64,000 nt of DNA from the IMG/VR virus record IMGVR_UViG_3300030098_001779, positions 18,412 to 82,411 of that record, one strand, 5' to 3'. The notes under the pieces were generated by a model. That model searched no databases and was not told where the DNA came from. It was given only the letters and a program-made list of their open reading frames with translations. Below, one piece after another: positions 4,183-62,411 of the stretch. This stretch comes from a virus. Positions within the stretch are counted from its first letter, which is position 1. Every line of letters begins with the position of its first letter. The position numbers and the translations under genes were made by a program.

Positions 4183-7100
4183 ATGCCAAAAAGTAGAGGG
4201 ATACAAGGTGGACTAACCAGAGGTCGACTATTTGATACTAATATAAAAGCAACTCAGATAGATGAAGATATCTTTTCTGACCAAGAGCTATTGTCTTCTA
4301 TTGCAGGAGATGATTTAGTATTAGTTCTTGACGTATCTGAAACACCAGATAAAGTTAAATATATTACTAAAAGTAATTTCGTTACTGGTATTACTGGAGT
4401 AACAGTCACTGATAACGAATCTACTAATGAAGATAATTTACTTACCTTTGTTGCAGATGCAGCTACATCAACTGGATCTCATGAACTTGAAATGGATGGA
4501 GATCTTACTTATAATCCATCTACAGGTAACCTTTCCGCTACACAATTAACAGGTGCTTTACAAACTGCATCACATCCTAATGTGACTACTCTTGCTGGTG
4601 TAACAGCTATGGGTTCAGTATCAAATGCTCTAACTCTTACTTATAGTGATGCAACTTTATTTCACGATGCAAATAATGCAGACACCTCTTTTACAATGGG
4701 TACAAGTGCTACTGAAGCACTAAAAATAGAAGTATTAAATGGTGGATCTAATAAAACTGCAGAGTCTATTGCCTTTACTTCTACAACAGCATCAGGAACT
4801 GGAGATCACGGTAAGTTTACATTTAGTGTTGATGAAGCAACTGCAATGTTTACAATTGATGATGGTGGAGTAAGTATAGCTGAAAGTGGTGCTTATGAAA
4901 TAAATGGCACAGCAATATTATCAGACTCGTCAGGCACTTTAACATTACAAAATGTAGATGCCTTAGATGCTACAACAGAATCAACTATAGAAGCAGCTCT
5001 AGATACATTATCTAATCTAGCTTCTGCTACAGCCTTGACTACAATAGGTTCAGCAGGAGCTACAACAAATTTTGCAGCTGGTGATGTTACCTTCTTTAAT
5101 CCTGTTAACGATGGTAATCCTACACTTAGTTTAGGATCAGATAGTAATGAAAGATTAAAAATAACATCAACTTATGACTCTGGAGCTCAGACATTAGATA
5201 AAGTTACATTTGAGACTGCTGCCGCTTCAGGTAGTTCAGACAAAGGTAAATATGTATTTAACGTGGATGGTACAGATATATTCGATATTGATGATTCAGG
5301 TATAAATTTAACTTCTGGTAAATCAGTTAGAGTAGCTGGAGCAGCTGTTGTAGGTGGCGTTAATGAGTTTGCAGCTGGAGCGGTAGCAGACGGAGATTCA
5401 TTTATATTTTCAGATGCTAATGATAGCAACGCAACTAAAAAAGATGCTATAGCAGATCTTGCAACATTATTCGCAGGAACAGGATTAACAGCATCTAGCT
5501 CTGTCATATCAGTTGATGCAGCACAATCAGGTATTACATCATTAGGAACATTAACAGGTTTAACTTTAGATGGTGATAAAAACGTAACACCGGGTGATGG
5601 TGCTATGATACATCTTGATACATCTACAATTACAGATAATAATACGTCAGGTTCAGGAACTGCGGCATTATATACACATGTAAGATTTGAGGCACCTACT
5701 TTAGCTGCTTCTAATTCATCTGTAACAACAACTACAGCAAGCACTGTATACATTAGTGGTGCTCCATCAGCAGGAACAAATCAAACTGTATCAAATGGAT
5801 TAGCATTATTCGTGGATGCAGGAAATGTAAGATTTGATGGCGACATTATCATGGGGACTAATACTGCTGGTAATTTATTAATTGCTGATGGTAGTAACTT
5901 TAGTTCAACAGCAGTTGGTGATTTATCCGAAATATCTACAGTTGCATCTGACGATGTGTTACTTGCAGTAGATACATCAGGTGGTGGACTAAAGAGAATT
6001 ACAAGGTCAACACTTGTAGCTGGTCTTGCTACAGGTAGTGAAATATCAAATGTTGTTGAAGATACTTCACCACAACTTGGTGGCGACTTAGATGTAAATG
6101 GTAATGGTCTAGTATCTACTTCAAATGGTAATATAGCACTTACACCAAACGGTTCAGGTGTTGTTAGAATAGATGGCTCTAATGGTATTGACATGGAGTC
6201 AGGAGCTATATCAATTAAAAACTCTGGGGCACAGTCTTATGTAAGATTTTATTGTGAAGTAAGTAATGCACATTATGCCCAATTACAAGCACCAGCACAT
6301 GCAGATTTTGGTGGAAATATAACTTTAACTTTACCTGCAACTACAGATACTCTTGCAGGTTTAGCAGCTACACAAACATTTACAAATAAATCTTTTGGTA
6401 GTGATGTAGATATATTTGAAGATGCAAACAACGCTGATGTAACATTAAGAATGGGTACAAGTGCTACAGAATCTTTAGCTATTTCAGTATTGAATGGTGG
6501 TTCTAATAAGACAGCCGAGTCTGTTACATTTACAACTGCTACAGCATCGGGTACAAGTGATCATGGTAAATTTACATTTAATGTGGACGGCTCAGACATT
6601 TTTGATGTTGATGATTCGGGTATTAACTTAGCATCAGGTAAAACATTTAGAATAAATGGAACTGCTATTTCTTCAGCAGTTATCACTGCATTAAATAATG
6701 CAACTGAAAATGAATTAGTAACTATTGGTAGTACAACTACTGAACTAGATGCAGAAACAGCTTTAACATTTGACGGAACTGATTTAAAATTACTTAAAGA
6801 TGCAAATAATGCGGATGTATCATTCGTATTAGGTACAGCTGATGCAGAATCATTGACAATACAGGTATTAAATGGTGGTTCCAACAAGACTGCAGAAGAG
6901 ATACACTTTAGTACAGCGACTGCATCGGGTACAGCCAATCATGGAAAAATGGTGTTTGATATTGATGGAACTGATCAATTTGAAATTAATGATAGTGGTG
7001 TTACAGTTACAGGCGATTTAACAATTACTGGTGATGATTTATTTATGAACACAAACACAGCAGGACACATTCTTGTTGGTGATGATACAAATTACAATCC

Positions 7101-8308: not shown

Positions 8309-9553
8309 ATGGCATATATTGGAAATCAACCTGCTGAAACACCAGTAAAAGAAATTTTAGAAACCGATATAAAAATTGGTGAAGACGATCAAACTAAAAT
8401 TGACTTTGAAACTGCTAATACAATTAATTTTTATGCTAATAACGCTAAAGAAGTTGTCTTAACAGAGAATAGTCTTACGCCGGGCACAAGTGATGGAACA
8501 GCTCTAGGAACTACAAGTCTTATGTGGTCTGATTTGTTTCTTGCTAGTGGTTCAGTAATAAATTTAAATAATGGTGATGTGACATTAACACATTCTGCTA
8601 ATACATTAACAGTTGCTGGAGGCACATTAGCCACAGCAGCACTAACAGCTTCTACAGGTACTTTCTCAGGAATCTTAAAAACTGACGACACTACAGAAGC
8701 AACATCTACCACTGACGGTTCTTTACAAACAGATGGTGGTTTAAGTGTTGCTAAGGATGCAGTTATGGGAGATGATGTGCTATTATTATCAGACAGTGCC
8801 GTGCTTAAGTTCGGAGCTGACTCTGATACTACACTTACTCATACAGACGGAACTGGTTTGACTTTAAACAGCACCAACAAGTTAACTTTTGGGGATGCTG
8901 CTTCTTTTATTCAACAGTCAAGTGATGGGGTATTAAGAATAGATGGTGAGGCTACTGTAGATATTAATGCATCTACAGCAGTAACAATTAGTAATGATCT
9001 TAAACTAGATAGTGATTCAGCTGTGTTGGGGTTTGGAGCTGATAATGATGCTACAATAACTCACGCAGATGATGCAGGATTAACATTTAATTCTGCCACA
9101 ACATTTTCATCATCAATAAATTTAGCTTTAGATGCCCATCTTGATAGCACACCGGGTGATGAAAAAGTATCTGGTATAACTGCTACATTTCAAGCAGGTG
9201 AAGCATTAGAAAGAGGAGAGTGTGTATATTTTAAAGCATCAGATTCTAAGATGCATAAAGCTGTAGCAACAGCATCAGCAACTTCAAGATGTGTTGCATT
9301 AGCAGCAGAAGATCTTTCAGCAGATGCTAATGGTAAATTTTTACTCTATGGTTTTATAGAAGATAATGGTACTTTCCCAGCATATACAGTTGGAGGCACA
9401 ATATTTACACCAGAAGCAGAAACATCTTCTCAAAATGTACCTGAACAAACAGCTCCAGATAGTGATGGAGATTTTGTTCAAGTATTAGGTTTTGCAGTAA
9501 CAGCAAACAAATTATTTTTTAATCCAAGCAACGATGTAATAGAACACGCATAA
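8309..9553 (+). CDS. MAYIGN-type tail fibre protein, copy 1
   Basis: 414 residues. The N-terminus MAYIGNQPAETPVKEILETD is typical of fibre proteins in marine phages. Residues about 50-200 form a stalk with repeats of the type DSAVL-FGAD-D-T-TH-D-GL, present at about 170 and 225. The C-terminal 140 residues form a different, more globular domain containing Cys, Tyr and Phe (RGECVYFKASDSKMHKAV). It is a close paralogue of the gene at 11537: a core of about 47 residues is identical, while the tip domain is much more diverged. Likely host-contact or fibre-core role. The stop overlaps the next start (TAATGG). Confidence 0.85.
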   Translation: MAYIGNQPAETPVKEILETDIKIGEDDQTKIDFETANTINFYANNAKEVVLTENSLTPGTSDGTALGTTSLMWSDLFLASGSVINLNNGDVTLTHSANTLTVAGGTLATAALTASTGTFSGILKTDDTTEATSTTDGSLQTDGGLSVAKDAVMGDDVLLLSDSAVLKFGADSDTTLTHTDGTGLTLNSTNKLTFGDAASFIQQSSDGVLRIDGEATVDINASTAVTISNDLKLDSDSAVLGFGADNDATITHADDAGLTFNSATTFSSSINLALDAHLDSTPGDEKVSGITATFQAGEALERGECVYFKASDSKMHKAVATASATSRCVALAAEDLSADANGKFLLYGFIEDNGTFPAYTVGGTIFTPEAETSSQNVPEQTAPDSDGDFVQVLGFAVTANKLFFNPSNDVIEHA

Positions 9554-26749: not shown

Positions 26750-27011
26750 ATTTAATAAAGAAAAAGCTCTAAAAAGTTTAGATGTATTATTTGATATATT
26801 TAAAGATATATCTACAAATGCTGACGAAGTTTTTAAAAAGAGATGTCCTTATAAAAATGCAAAGTCTAGATGTACTGCTAAATTTGAATGTAAAAATCAA
26901 TATAATATTAAGAAATTTGGAGAAAGCCCTGTTTGTACAGGATCAGATTTACTTGATTACAGACCAGCGTGGATACCAGATAAAAGATTAAATTCTAATA
27001 ATGAGACTTGA
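26739..27011 (+). CDS. Small cysteine-containing protein, putative zinc binder
   Basis: 90 residues from the ATG at 26739 (MTSKFNKEKALKSLDVLF). An in-frame ATG eight codons earlier (26715) lies deeper in the previous gene and has no better ribosome site. Four Cys within CPYKNAKSRCTAKFECKNQ and ESPVC could bind one zinc. Overlaps both neighbours by 11 nt. Function unknown. Confidence 0.6.
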   Translation: MTSKFNKEKALKSLDVLFDIFKDISTNADEVFKKRCPYKNAKSRCTAKFECKNQYNIKKFGESPVCTGSDLLDYRPAWIPDKRLNSNNET

Positions 27012-27381
27012 TACTAAAGTAATTAAATATAGGAATCAAAACCCTTTTATGTCAACACGTCAGATTGCAAGAGAGGTTGGAGCTTCTGTAAGTTGGGTGC
27101 ATAACATATTAAAAACAGCTAACTTACCTACAAACCCACCTAAGAAGAAAAAGATTACTTATATCTGCCCAGAATGTAAACAACTTGTTAATGCTAGACG
27201 TAAATTCTGTAGTGAAAAATGTAAATACAACTATAGAAATCCTTTACTTACTTGTCATTATTGCCACGCAAAGTTCAGAAGATCTAGGTCAAGAGTAATA
27301 GCAGCCATAAAAAGAGGCTGTGATCACATATATTGTGACCAAAAATGTACAAATAGAGCAAAAAGAGACAAAATTACTTGA
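27001..27381 (+). CDS. HTH plus double zinc-finger DNA-binding protein
   Basis: 126 residues. Residues about 17-42 (STRQIAREVGASVSWVHNIL) form a helix-turn-helix. The rest contains paired Cys motifs: CPEC-x11-CSEKC and CHYC-x17-CDQKC, two zinc-finger-like units in a basic context. A DNA-binding role is well supported; whether it is a transcription regulator or a nuclease accessory is open. It lies immediately upstream of a class I promoter whose -35 overlaps its stop codon, so it could act on that promoter, but nothing shows this directly. Confidence 0.75.
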   Translation: MRLDTKVIKYRNQNPFMSTRQIAREVGASVSWVHNILKTANLPTNPPKKKKITYICPECKQLVNARRKFCSEKCKYNYRNPLLTCHYCHAKFRRSRSRVIAAIKRGCDHIYCDQKCTNRAKRDKIT

Positions 27382-27407
27382 CACGCCTACCCCAAATATG
27401 ATATAAT
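27378..27407 (+). promoter_or_regulatory. Strong class I promoter with extended -10
   Basis: Perfect TTGACA, 18-nt spacer, perfect TATAAT, plus TGA immediately before the -10 (extended -10). The downstream dyad half is degenerate here (CCCAA instead of GTCAA). The predicted start, about 27414, is the first base of the long RNA stem that follows. Confidence 0.85.
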
Positions 27408-27410
27408 TAA

Positions 27411-27546
27411 TAATGTATTAAGGAATAAAGTTATTATTCTGAAGTCGCCCTTGACTACAACTGAGAGTATCAGGGGCAAGAGAGAGAAACTCAGAACTCT
27501 CTCTAAGACATAGTGCGAATTAATAACATTTATTCCATTAATACAA
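27411..27546 (+). ncRNA. Structured leader RNA: 23-bp stem, two hairpins, complementary loops
   Basis: 27414-27436 pairs with 27521-27545 in 23 Watson-Crick pairs, broken only by single bulged A residues at 27528 and 27537. Inside are hairpin B (27447-27454 with 27470-27477, extended by 27456-27458 with 27467-27469) and hairpin C (27479-27486 with 27497-27504, 8 pairs). Loop B contains CTGAG (27461-27465) and loop C contains CTCAG (27490-27494), which can form a 5-bp kissing contact. Helices B and C are separated by a single A. No coding potential is seen. Three-way geometry with kissing loops recalls purine-type riboswitches, but the conserved core of that class is absent. Could be a leader regulator, a stable small RNA or a thermosensor for the heat shock gene downstream. 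Confidence 0.7.
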
Positions 27547-27556
27547 TGATACGGAT

Positions 27557-27595
27557 GGGGAGATGCAGATAAATCATTGGATTACTGCACTCCCC
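27557..27595 (+). promoter_or_regulatory. Stable hairpin upstream of hsp20 ribosome site
   Basis: GGGGAG pairs with CTCCCC and, after one bulged A, TGCAG with CTGCA; an inner 4-bp extension closes an ATTG tetraloop. No T-run follows, so it is not a canonical terminator. It ends 20 nt before the AGGAGGAG ribosome site and may insulate it, halt processing, or form the 3' end of the structured RNA. Confidence 0.65.
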
Positions 27596-27624
27596 TCTCT
27601 ATAAATTAATTATTAGGAGGAGAT

Positions 27625-28035
27625 ATGACAATAGCAACGAAAACAGCTGACCCTTTTGACATTTTTGCAGACTTTTTTAGTGATAAGTGGGTGGGTTCAA
27701 CAATCCACAAGTATCCATTGGATGTAATTGAATCAGATACAGGGTATGAAGTCAAAATTTCACTACCGGGTGTAGAAAAGGGTAACCTTTCTGTAACCTT
27801 AGATAAAGACACTTTAATAATAGAAGCAACAACTTCTGAAACTAAGAGTGATAAGAACAAATATTTATACAGAGGTATAAAGACAGGTTCTTATAAAAAA
27901 CATATTTCAGTAAAAGATTATGGTGTAGATTCTAAGAAGATTAGCTCTAGCTACAAAAATGGAATCTTAACTATAACTTTACCTAAACATAAAGAAGCTA
28001 AACCTCAAACAATACAAGTAGCCATGGAGAGTTAG
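27625..28035 (+). CDS. hsp20: Small heat shock protein (Hsp20, alpha-crystallin family)
   Basis: 136 residues, normal length for the family. The alpha-crystallin domain covers about 30-125: YPLDVIESDTGYEVKISLPG opening strand, then the signature NGILTITLPK at about 112-121. A C-terminal TIQV matches the I-x-I/V anchor. Such proteins are ATP-independent holdases that keep unfolding proteins soluble; marine and cyanophages carry them and they are thought to support virion protein folding. It is preceded by a class I promoter, a structured leader RNA and a near-perfect ribosome site (AGGAGGAG), and followed after 3 nt by the sigma factor gene. Confidence 0.93.
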   Translation: MTIATKTADPFDIFADFFSDKWVGSTIHKYPLDVIESDTGYEVKISLPGVEKGNLSVTLDKDTLIIEATTSETKSDKNKYLYRGIKTGSYKKHISVKDYGVDSKKISSSYKNGILTITLPKHKEAKPQTIQVAMES

Positions 28036-28038
28036 CAA

Positions 28039-28572
28039 ATGGAGATAAACGATGAATTGATTAGGCAATGGGAACCTAAGATTCATAAAATGCTCCAAAC
28101 ATCGTATGTAGTAGGGTATGATCGAGAAGATTTAGCACAAGAACTTAGAATCGCTATTATGAAAGCGGCTAAGGCATATAAAGCAGACAGAGGTAGCATC
28201 TTTCATACCTACTTACATACCACGATGGTAAACACGATCAGAACTTTAATCAGTAAGGCACAGAAAAAGCCTATGACTGTAAGCTATGATGAAACATTTT
28301 TAGACTATGAATCTGATTTTTTACCTGATTTTATAGCAAAAGCTATTGGATATGAGGAAGAATGGGAATTACTAGAACTAAAAGATGAATTATCAAAGTT
28401 TAATTTATCTGAACGTGAGAAAAGATTTGTTGAGTTAAGATTAGAAGGTTGGACTATGGATGAGATATCTGATGATATTGAGAAATCTGCATACAGAGTG
28501 CGTCAAAATCTTAGAACAAAGGTAGAGAAGATATTTTATGGTCAAGAGAACAAAGAAGAAGAGTCAATATAA
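28039..28572 (+). CDS. Phage RNA polymerase sigma factor (sigma-70 family)
   Basis: 177 residues. A region 2-like domain at about 20-75 (YDREDLAQELRIAIMKAAKA, then FHTYLHTTMVNTIR) and a region 4 helix-turn-helix at about 120-168 (LSEREKRFVELRLEGWTMDE, ISDDIEKS, RVRQNLR) make this a compact two-domain sigma of the sporulation/ECF-like type. It would redirect host RNA polymerase to phage promoters; the AGTATAAT class II sites lacking TTGACA are natural candidates, which is inference. Co-transcription with hsp20 from the class I promoter suggests middle expression. The next gene overlaps it by 35 nt. Confidence 0.88.
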   Translation: MEINDELIRQWEPKIHKMLQTSYVVGYDREDLAQELRIAIMKAAKAYKADRGSIFHTYLHTTMVNTIRTLISKAQKKPMTVSYDETFLDYESDFLPDFIAKAIGYEEEWELLELKDELSKFNLSEREKRFVELRLEGWTMDEISDDIEKSAYRVRQNLRTKVEKIFYGQENKEEESI

Positions 28573-28969: not shown

Positions 28970-29192
28970 AAAAGGGGGGTTGACACGGACCCACACAAAA
29001 GTGTATAATAATAATATAAATAATATATATAGAGTTATAAGTATACATAACAAAACTAAACATATAACTATTATTGGAACATATGATTGTATTAATGCAG
29101 CTAAATTAATGGCAGATGATCTAGCTAATAAAGATGTTAAGTGTTATGTACATGGAGATGATAGTAGAGTTTTACACATAGCAGGAGAGTAG
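28956..29192 (+). CDS. Small hypothetical protein containing an internal promoter
   Basis: 78 residues. Start ATG has AAGGAG 7 nt upstream inside the previous gene. The C-terminal part (IDN-type alpha/beta; ITIIGTYDCINAAKLMADDL) looks folded, while the N-terminal 25 residues are basic and Asn-rich because the DNA there also holds a promoter. One nt separates its stop from the helicase start. A short version beginning after the promoter has no suitable start codon. Function unknown. Confidence 0.65.
   Translation: MKRSRKGGLTRTHTKVYNNNINNIYRVISIHNKTKHITIIGTYDCINAAKLMADDLANKDVKCYVHGDDSRVLHIAGE
28980..29009 (+). promoter_or_regulatory. Class I promoter before the replication genes
   Basis: TTGACA, 18-nt spacer, TATAAT, lying inside the coding region of a small gene. 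The spacer (CGGACCCACACAAAAGTG) lacks the GCTA and GTCAA elements found in most sister sites, so this promoter may escape whatever recognises the dyad. It would drive helicase, primase, SSB and polymerase. Confidence 0.7.
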
Positions 29193-43497: not shown

Positions 43498-43527
43498 TTG
43501 ACAAAGCTACGTCAAATATGATATAAT
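43498..43527 (+). promoter_or_regulatory. Class I promoter with perfect dyad
   Basis: TTGACA, 18-nt spacer, TATAAT, with TGA as extended -10. TTGAC (43498-43502) and GTCAA (43511-43515) form a perfect inverted repeat. The spacer end GTCAAATATGA is identical to that at 51600. Drives the portal gene cluster. Confidence 0.85.
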
Positions 43528-56361: not shown

Positions 56362-56396
56362 ATTATAAATTATTTTATAATATTCGTAATATTTAT

Positions 56397-56425
56397 GTAA
56401 AAAATGCCTTTATTTATAGTATAAT
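56397..56425 (+). promoter_or_regulatory. Candidate class II promoter of the capsid operon
   Basis: TATAGTATAATATTA with GTAAAA at the -35 position. Predicted start about 56432, at the foot of a hairpin with a T-run. It precedes the scaffold and major capsid genes by 140 nt of structured leader. Confidence 0.45.
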
Positions 56426-56433
56426 ATTACAGG

Positions 56434-56546
56434 ATAGGCGAATAGTGCCTATTTTTATATTATAATTCTATAGAGGTCGGGGGTGGCTAAGACCAACCTT
56501 GAGAATTAATAAACTTTTAACTTAATTTTTAGTCTGGAATGAGACT
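56434..56546 (+). promoter_or_regulatory. Structured leader with attenuator-like hairpin before capsid genes
   Basis: Three paired elements: ATAGGC (56434-56439) with GCCTAT (56447-56452) followed by a T5 run (56452-56456); AATTCT (56464-56469) with AGAATT (56502-56507), extended by AGGT-ACCT and GG-CC; and AGTCT (56531-56535) with AGACT (56542-56546). The first is a small intrinsic-terminator-like hairpin beginning at the predicted transcription start, so it may instead end transcription coming from upstream. Confidence 0.55.
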
Positions 56547-62331: not shown

Positions 62332-62346
62332 AACTTTCAAACTTGT

Positions 62347-62376
62347 CCCCTACTGTAAAAGGTAGGGGATTTTTTT
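62347..62376 (+). terminator. Strong intrinsic terminator ending the head operon
   Basis: CCCCTAC pairs with GTAGGGG, 8-nt loop, then seven T residues (62370-62376). It begins about 15 nt after the last small gene and is directly followed by a class I promoter, so it cleanly separates two transcription units. Confidence 0.93.
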
Positions 62377-62381
62377 ATTGC

Positions 62382-62411
62382 TTGACATGGCTATATTCAA
62401 TTTGCTATAAT
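62382..62411 (+). promoter_or_regulatory. Class I promoter of the accessory operon
   Basis: TTGACA, 18-nt spacer with TGGCTA, TATAAT, TGC as extended -10. The GTCAA half-site is degenerate (ATTCAA). Directly after the terminator at 62347. Confidence 0.85.

Follow-up and report, generated by a model that had tools for sequence, protein, structure and literature searches.

A clade-specific structured leader RNA ahead of the hsp20-sigma operon in marine phages

The hsp20-sigma operon and its promoter

The window, the 64,000-nucleotide stretch of the viral record IMGVR_UViG_3300030098_001779 analysed here, contains an operon encoding a small heat-shock protein and a sigma-70-like factor. Between its promoter and the first ribosome site lies an RNA element built around a three-way junction, followed by one further hairpin. 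The features of the locus are listed below, all on the + strand.

27378-27407, +, hsp20-sigma promoter, TTGACA-18-TGATATAAT (consensus match 12/12)
27414-27545, +, structured RNA element, P1 closing a three-way junction (folding, compensatory changes)
27414-27439, +, P1, 5' strand, pairing with 27517-27545 (double changes at 27429/27529 and 27430/27527)
27444-27446, +, junction-closing helix, 5' strand (27446/27507 double change, C-G to A-U)
27447-27477, +, P2 hairpin, loop AACUGAGA (folding; loop invariant in all carriers)
27479-27504, +, P3 hairpin, loop AAACUCAGAA (folding; matched insertions give 8 or 9 bp)
27517-27545, +, P1, 3' strand; U27520, A27528 and A27537 bulged (folding)
27553-27598, +, last hairpin, GC-rich, with three double-change pairs (folding; kept in L010 and L011)
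27615-27620, +, ribosome site AGGAGG, not in any leader helix (sequence, folding)
27625-28035, +, hsp20, small heat-shock protein (PF00011, E 2e-19; phrog_432)
28039-28572, +, sigma-70-like factor (PF04542, E 1e-10; phrog_351)

The hsp20 promoter, TTGACA-18-TATAAT, has an extended -10 in addition to its complete match to consensus. The -10 hexamer TATAAT occupies 27402-27407, and normal promoter spacing predicts transcription from 27414, where the pairing of P1 begins, in agreement with the initial annotation. Four perfect TTGACA-18-TATAAT sites occur in the window, against 0.2 expected by chance; the other three are at 28980-29009, 43498-43527 and 62382-62411. The promoter at 43498 has AATATGATATAAT in common with that of hsp20, and a textbook terminator, near 62345-62376, immediately precedes the one at 62382.

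Upstream, 27001-27381 encodes a protein of 126 residues whose tail is rich in Cys and which matches a transposase-type HTH weakly, below the cut-off of PF01498. Even where relatives lack hsp20, its gene still adjoins that for sigma. Separating this HTH gene from the hsp20 promoter in L010 (266-532) and L017 (2281-2487) is an additional small Cys-containing ORF of 68-88 codons, not present in the window. No terminator was found downstream of either 27545 or the last hairpin, and no convincing one within the hsp20-sigma operon.

Fold of the leader

The 23 bp of P1 fall into segments of 8, 8 and 7 bp (27414-27421/27538-27545, 27422-27429/27529-27536 and 27430-27436/27521-27527), interrupted by the bulged residues A27537 and A27528. 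This long helix with two bulged A residues, enclosing two hairpins with complementary loops, had been described from the sequence before, and both the sequence and the predicted fold bear out that description to the base. Folding extends P1 inward by 3 bp (27437-27439/27517-27519), past a bulged U27520. An internal loop, UGAA opposite AUAGUGC, separates P1 from the short helix GUC/GAC (27444-27446/27507-27509) that closes the junction, whose strands measure 0 nt before P2, 1 nt between P2 and P3 and 2 nt after P3.

P2 has 11 bp with a bulged C27455, and its loop, AACUGAGA, carries CUGAG at 27461-27465. P3 has 8 bp, and its loop, AAACUCAGAA, carries CUCAG at 27490-27494. The two pentamers are exactly complementary in all carriers. 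Complementarity over five bases is expected by chance in approximately 2% of random loops of the same size, and in 0.08% at the loops' own composition, and kissing between P2 and P3 is plausible on this model of the fold.

At -69.6 kcal/mol (z -8.55), the element stretch is more stable than every one of 200 dinucleotide shuffles, which average -36.6 +/- 3.9, and it is the strongest GC-corrected local fold among 1,597 windows over 64 kb. The reverse strand folds as well (z -7.3), since the element is a near-palindrome, and any such sequence folds on both strands. Folding, together with compensatory changes in homologues, therefore identifies the element as a genuine structured RNA, and confidence in the structure is high. 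The proposal of a new structured RNA is thus upheld by the z-score, by these compensatory changes and by the lack of any Rfam match to the window at gathering scores.

The GC-rich hairpin that follows was also correctly recognised in the initial annotation, but it has 18 pairs in the predicted fold, not 11. A candidate leader peptide within it (ATG and 13 codons in the window) was rejected, the frame being lost in L007 and L010. In the predicted fold, AGGAGG pairs with the coding region, not with the leader. Over five temperatures, its predicted accessibility in the window goes from 0.14 at 10 C to 0.18 at 45 C; in L008 it goes from 0.33 to 0.55.

Distribution among relatives

Relatives were gathered through the downstream sigma gene, which yielded 25 viral contigs. 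The search for homologues in marine viral sequences suggested in the initial annotation finds the element in eight other marine phage contigs (L001 and L003-L009), with leader identities of 92-94%. Two alleles can be distinguished: A, in the window and L007-L009, and B, in L001 and L003-L006. The L002 contig starts within the leader, 45 nt ahead of hsp20 and directly 3' of the structured element, perhaps due to assembly trouble at the variable hairpin.

Other relatives have different leaders. L010 and L011 lack approximately 108 inner nucleotides; their promoter and operon are kept, and their leader retains both the base of P1 (GTATTAAGGAATTCTATTAATAC) and the last hairpin. In L012-L021, whose sigma factors are 75-77% identical, hsp20 and its promoter are present with a leader of 34-41 nt that forms a single short hairpin. 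In L022-L025 (sigma 39-44% identical), there is no hsp20 at the locus. A sigma profile scan added 59 more distant relatives (sigma 47-57% identical). Within 900 nt upstream of sigma, only L148 among them has a promoter of the hsp20 kind, at another position, and none of the 59 combines that promoter with the leader described here where upstream DNA is present.

No further carrier emerged when 2.9 million viral contigs were scanned with three patterns. In these contigs, the loop 16-mer ACAACTGAGAGTATCA matched the carriers and otherwise only coding sequence by chance; a gapped pattern of both loops, searched in the viral contigs and in 84,980 prokaryote genomes, likewise found carriers or chance coding matches only; and a pattern of outer P1 with a free interior found carriers and chance matches in the viral contigs, with no unseen allele. 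A covariance model of the element detected no second copy in 29 virus records, and DNA and sigma-protein searches gave no match among named phages, so that these include no close isolate. Across the sequences searched, the element is a clade-specific leader rather than a widespread class.

Covariation and mosaic history

In the alignment of the junction element, which comprises four distinct sequences, 98.1% of cells are paired. Double changes are present at 27429/27529 (A-U to U-A), 27430/27527 (G-C to A-U) and 27446/27507 (C-G to A-U); slid controls have zero. The observed paired percentage, double-change cell count and covariation score were reached by 2/500 shuffles. The evidence from these alignments is good yet limited, because the count of double-change pairs was reached by 287/500 shuffles and that of pair types by 420/500. 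The carriers amount to four or five distinct sequences, and the covariation rests on few events. Covariation had been proposed as a check in all three helices and in the kissing pair, and it is seen in part of them: double changes occur in P1, in the junction pair and, at three additional pairs, in the last hairpin. P2 shows only a U-A/U-G change, P3 shows G-U changes and lengthens from 8 to 9 bp where both arms carry matching insertions, and both hairpin loops are invariant across carriers, so that the kissing pair never varies. Most departures from pairing are G-U when read on the + strand, in favour of an RNA of that strand.

Divergence is unevenly spread along the locus. Between the window and L004, 3 of 1,068 aligned positions differ over the promoter, last hairpin, hsp20 and sigma, compared with 13 of 132 in the element; between the window and L008, hsp20 and sigma differ at approximately 8% of positions and the element at 7 of 132. 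Element and flanks therefore have separate histories, and the simplest reading of these sequences is that element alleles have been exchanged by recombination.

A possible role at the 5' end

The element is proposed, with moderate confidence, to be a cis-acting structured 5' leader of the hsp20-sigma mRNA, serving as a 5'-terminal clamp or a processing element. Transcription would start on the first paired base of P1, as predicted from the promoter. The nascent RNA forms a helix of 23-26 bp closing a three-way junction with two hairpins, with another hairpin preceding the free ribosome site, a structure that folding and covariation both show. Most likely, it would enclose the 5' end within a helix and so shield the mRNA from 5'-end-dependent decay by RppH and RNase E or their equivalents. 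The long P1 may double as an RNase III-type processing site, and the complementary loops would lock the two hairpins together, within or between molecules. The large element would represent an elaboration of the simpler 5' hairpin that occupies the equivalent place in relatives.

In favour of this proposal are the stable fold, the covariation, the promoter with its predicted start on P1, the ribosome site left free by the leader helices, and the leaders of relatives. Four types of hsp20 leader can be recognised (the full element, the reduced form in L010, and those of L012-L017 and L018-L021), and their sequences are largely unrelated. Counted from the predicted +1, 0 nt are unpaired before the helix in the element and L010, and 1-2 nt in L012-L021, so a stable helix stands within about 0-4 nt of the predicted 5' end, as in stabilising leaders. 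Mononucleotide shuffles give whole-leader z-scores of -4.1 to -8.8 for the four types. Other consensus promoters of these phages are not followed by such a helix: in a set of 18 distinct leaders with consensus promoters, drawn from the window and its relatives, those of other genes all score -1.1 or weaker over their first 40 nt. The helix at or near +1 in all four types therefore points to closure of the 5' end of the hsp20-sigma mRNA, and what the relatives keep, in the modelled folds, is the closed 5' helix rather than the three-way junction itself. That each group of relatives has its own helix at the hsp20 transcript start hints at selection to keep the 5' end of this particular mRNA closed. 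The operon persists in L010 and L011 without the inner element, which can thus be dispensed with; this fits a role in stability or processing, since elements of that kind can be dispensable. RppH prefers unpaired 5' nucleotides, and the ompA and papA mRNAs of E. coli are stabilised by 5'-terminal stem-loops (PMC3997798 and papers in the reference list).

It may be, instead, that the hsp20 promoter gives rise to a discrete small RNA, released by processing or termination after P1 and acting in trans, for example via its loops. The 5' and 3' ends of the element pair exactly in P1 with the predicted start on the first pair, the loops are invariant while the stems vary, and element alleles move independently of their flanks. 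Such an RNA is nevertheless unlikely given that no terminator follows 27545 or the last hairpin, that the element always occurs in an hsp20 leader, and that close relatives have lost it while retaining the operon. Less probable again is a new phage RNA class, expressed from a strong promoter, in which loops kissing within or between molecules would create a discrete particle or switch, with exchanged alleles and possibly a binding motif shared with Ocean-VII. Kissing of CUGAG and CUCAG between molecules, as in the phi29 packaging RNA, could also yield dimers or rings, an idea encouraged by exact loop complementarity in all carriers and by a three-way junction on a long closing stem. Self-association of this kind is very unlikely, as Rfam gives no pRNA match, the phage is not phi29-type (it has a family A polymerase and an ordinary terminase), and the loop pair, being invariant, lies outside the reach of covariation.

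Three further readings concern control of the operon or the DNA itself. A polymerase-binding antitermination RNA acting right after the promoter has a precedent in HK022 putL, two stem-loops just after PL (PMC9378689), and here too two stem-loops, 1 nt apart, lie directly 3' of a strong phage promoter. However, the operon that follows has no convincing terminator, relatives without the element retain the operon, and the long P1 encloses both hairpins, unlike put; the probability of this reading is correspondingly small. A riboswitch or RNA thermometer governing hsp20 would suit the position ahead of that gene, and the three-way junction with complementary loops recalls purine riboswitches. Both ligand and temperature sensing had been suggested for this RNA, and neither suggestion holds up well: there is no terminator or ribosome-site switch, the ribosome site lies outside the leader helices with a predicted accessibility in the window that is nearly flat from 10 to 45 C, no purine riboswitch is matched at E <= 10, and near relatives with the same genes lack the element. 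A sensor is thus highly improbable, and the free ribosome site and missing terminator together argue against thermometer, riboswitch and antiterminator alike. Least probable is a DNA-level element, either a cruciform or a small palindromic mobile element. The sequence is near-palindromic, folds on both strands, and its presence is all-or-none at the tip of the smaller palindrome of L010 and L011; however, neither the 29 records nor the public collections scanned by pattern yielded a second copy, no target duplication is seen, the mostly G-U departures on the + strand would be tolerated by an RNA and not by a cruciform, and the element sits exactly at the predicted transcript start.

Through swapped leaders, the naturally empty alleles of the operon make the effect of the element directly testable. 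Whatever its function, which is inferred here, the element is a previously uncatalogued, clade-specific structured leader RNA of marine phage, a well-formed, covarying RNA of uncultured viruses that belongs to no Rfam family at threshold.

Comparison with known systems

The only Rfam match below E = 1 in the leader stretch is Ocean-VII (RF03092), at 19.5 bits and E 0.0015 against a gathering score of 53.5; L007 and L008 score 18.5 bits, and the best E in a control stretch of the window is 0.85. The value stands out without amounting to proof, and it is treated as a weak lead, with no membership claimed. Ocean-VII also occurs in marine virus contigs. In both it and the element, GAGUAUCAGGG, a purine-rich arm of a hairpin and AGAC follow one another in this order, either by coincidence or, perhaps, as a binding motif common to the two. 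True Ocean-VII loci, however, form the 3' end of a conserved RNA that is larger and folds differently. Such loci were located in L052 (about 8501-8650, -), L053 (about 196-345, -), L055 (about 4910-5060, +) and L056, and the 41-nt Rfam model covers just the 3' part of a conserved RNA of approximately 150 nt with a closing helix, of the form CUAGU.ACCUAC ... UUCGACUAAGGGACA ... GUAGACGGC.GAUGU.ACGG ... GAGAUGAGUAUCAGGGAUCAGAG hairpin CAGAC. The L052 contig also encodes several tRNAs. Elsewhere in the window, the intergenic stretch 56390-56509 forms a strong hairpin around GGATAGGCGAATAGTGCCTA (z -2.8) that matches no Rfam family.

The phi29 pRNA combines a long closing helix, a three-way junction and two complementary hairpin loops. 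The element resembles pRNAs of this type (RF00044) in all three respects, but it lies in an mRNA leader, is missing from near relatives and belongs to a phage with a family A polymerase; no RF00044 match was obtained at E <= 10. Purine riboswitches (RF00167) likewise have a three-way junction and two loops able to kiss, and the initial annotation was right that the shape is similar while the class core is absent. There is no RF00167 match at E <= 10, the junction strands are 0, 1 and 2 nt, P1 is far longer, and the leader contains no expression platform in the form of a terminator or a masked ribosome site. Nor does the leader sequester the ribosome site at low temperature, as thermometers of the ROSE, fourU and hsp17 types do. 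HK022 putRNA also has two stem-loops immediately downstream of a strong phage promoter, whereas in the element these lie within a long helix, the whole is about twice as long, and no terminators to overcome were found.

The leaders of ompA and papA are similar in placing a helix no more than 2 nt from the mRNA 5' end (predicted in the present case) and leaving the ribosome site free downstream. They are, however, simple hairpins, whereas the element is a three-way junction with complementary loops on a stem of 23-26 bp, and for it stabilisation is inferred. A simple hairpin would be enough to protect an end, and the three-way junction and invariant complementary loops suggest something more; it may be that the junction adds rigidity, or a contact with protein or RNA. 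If the loops truly kiss, the element adds a natural loop-loop three-way junction within an mRNA leader.
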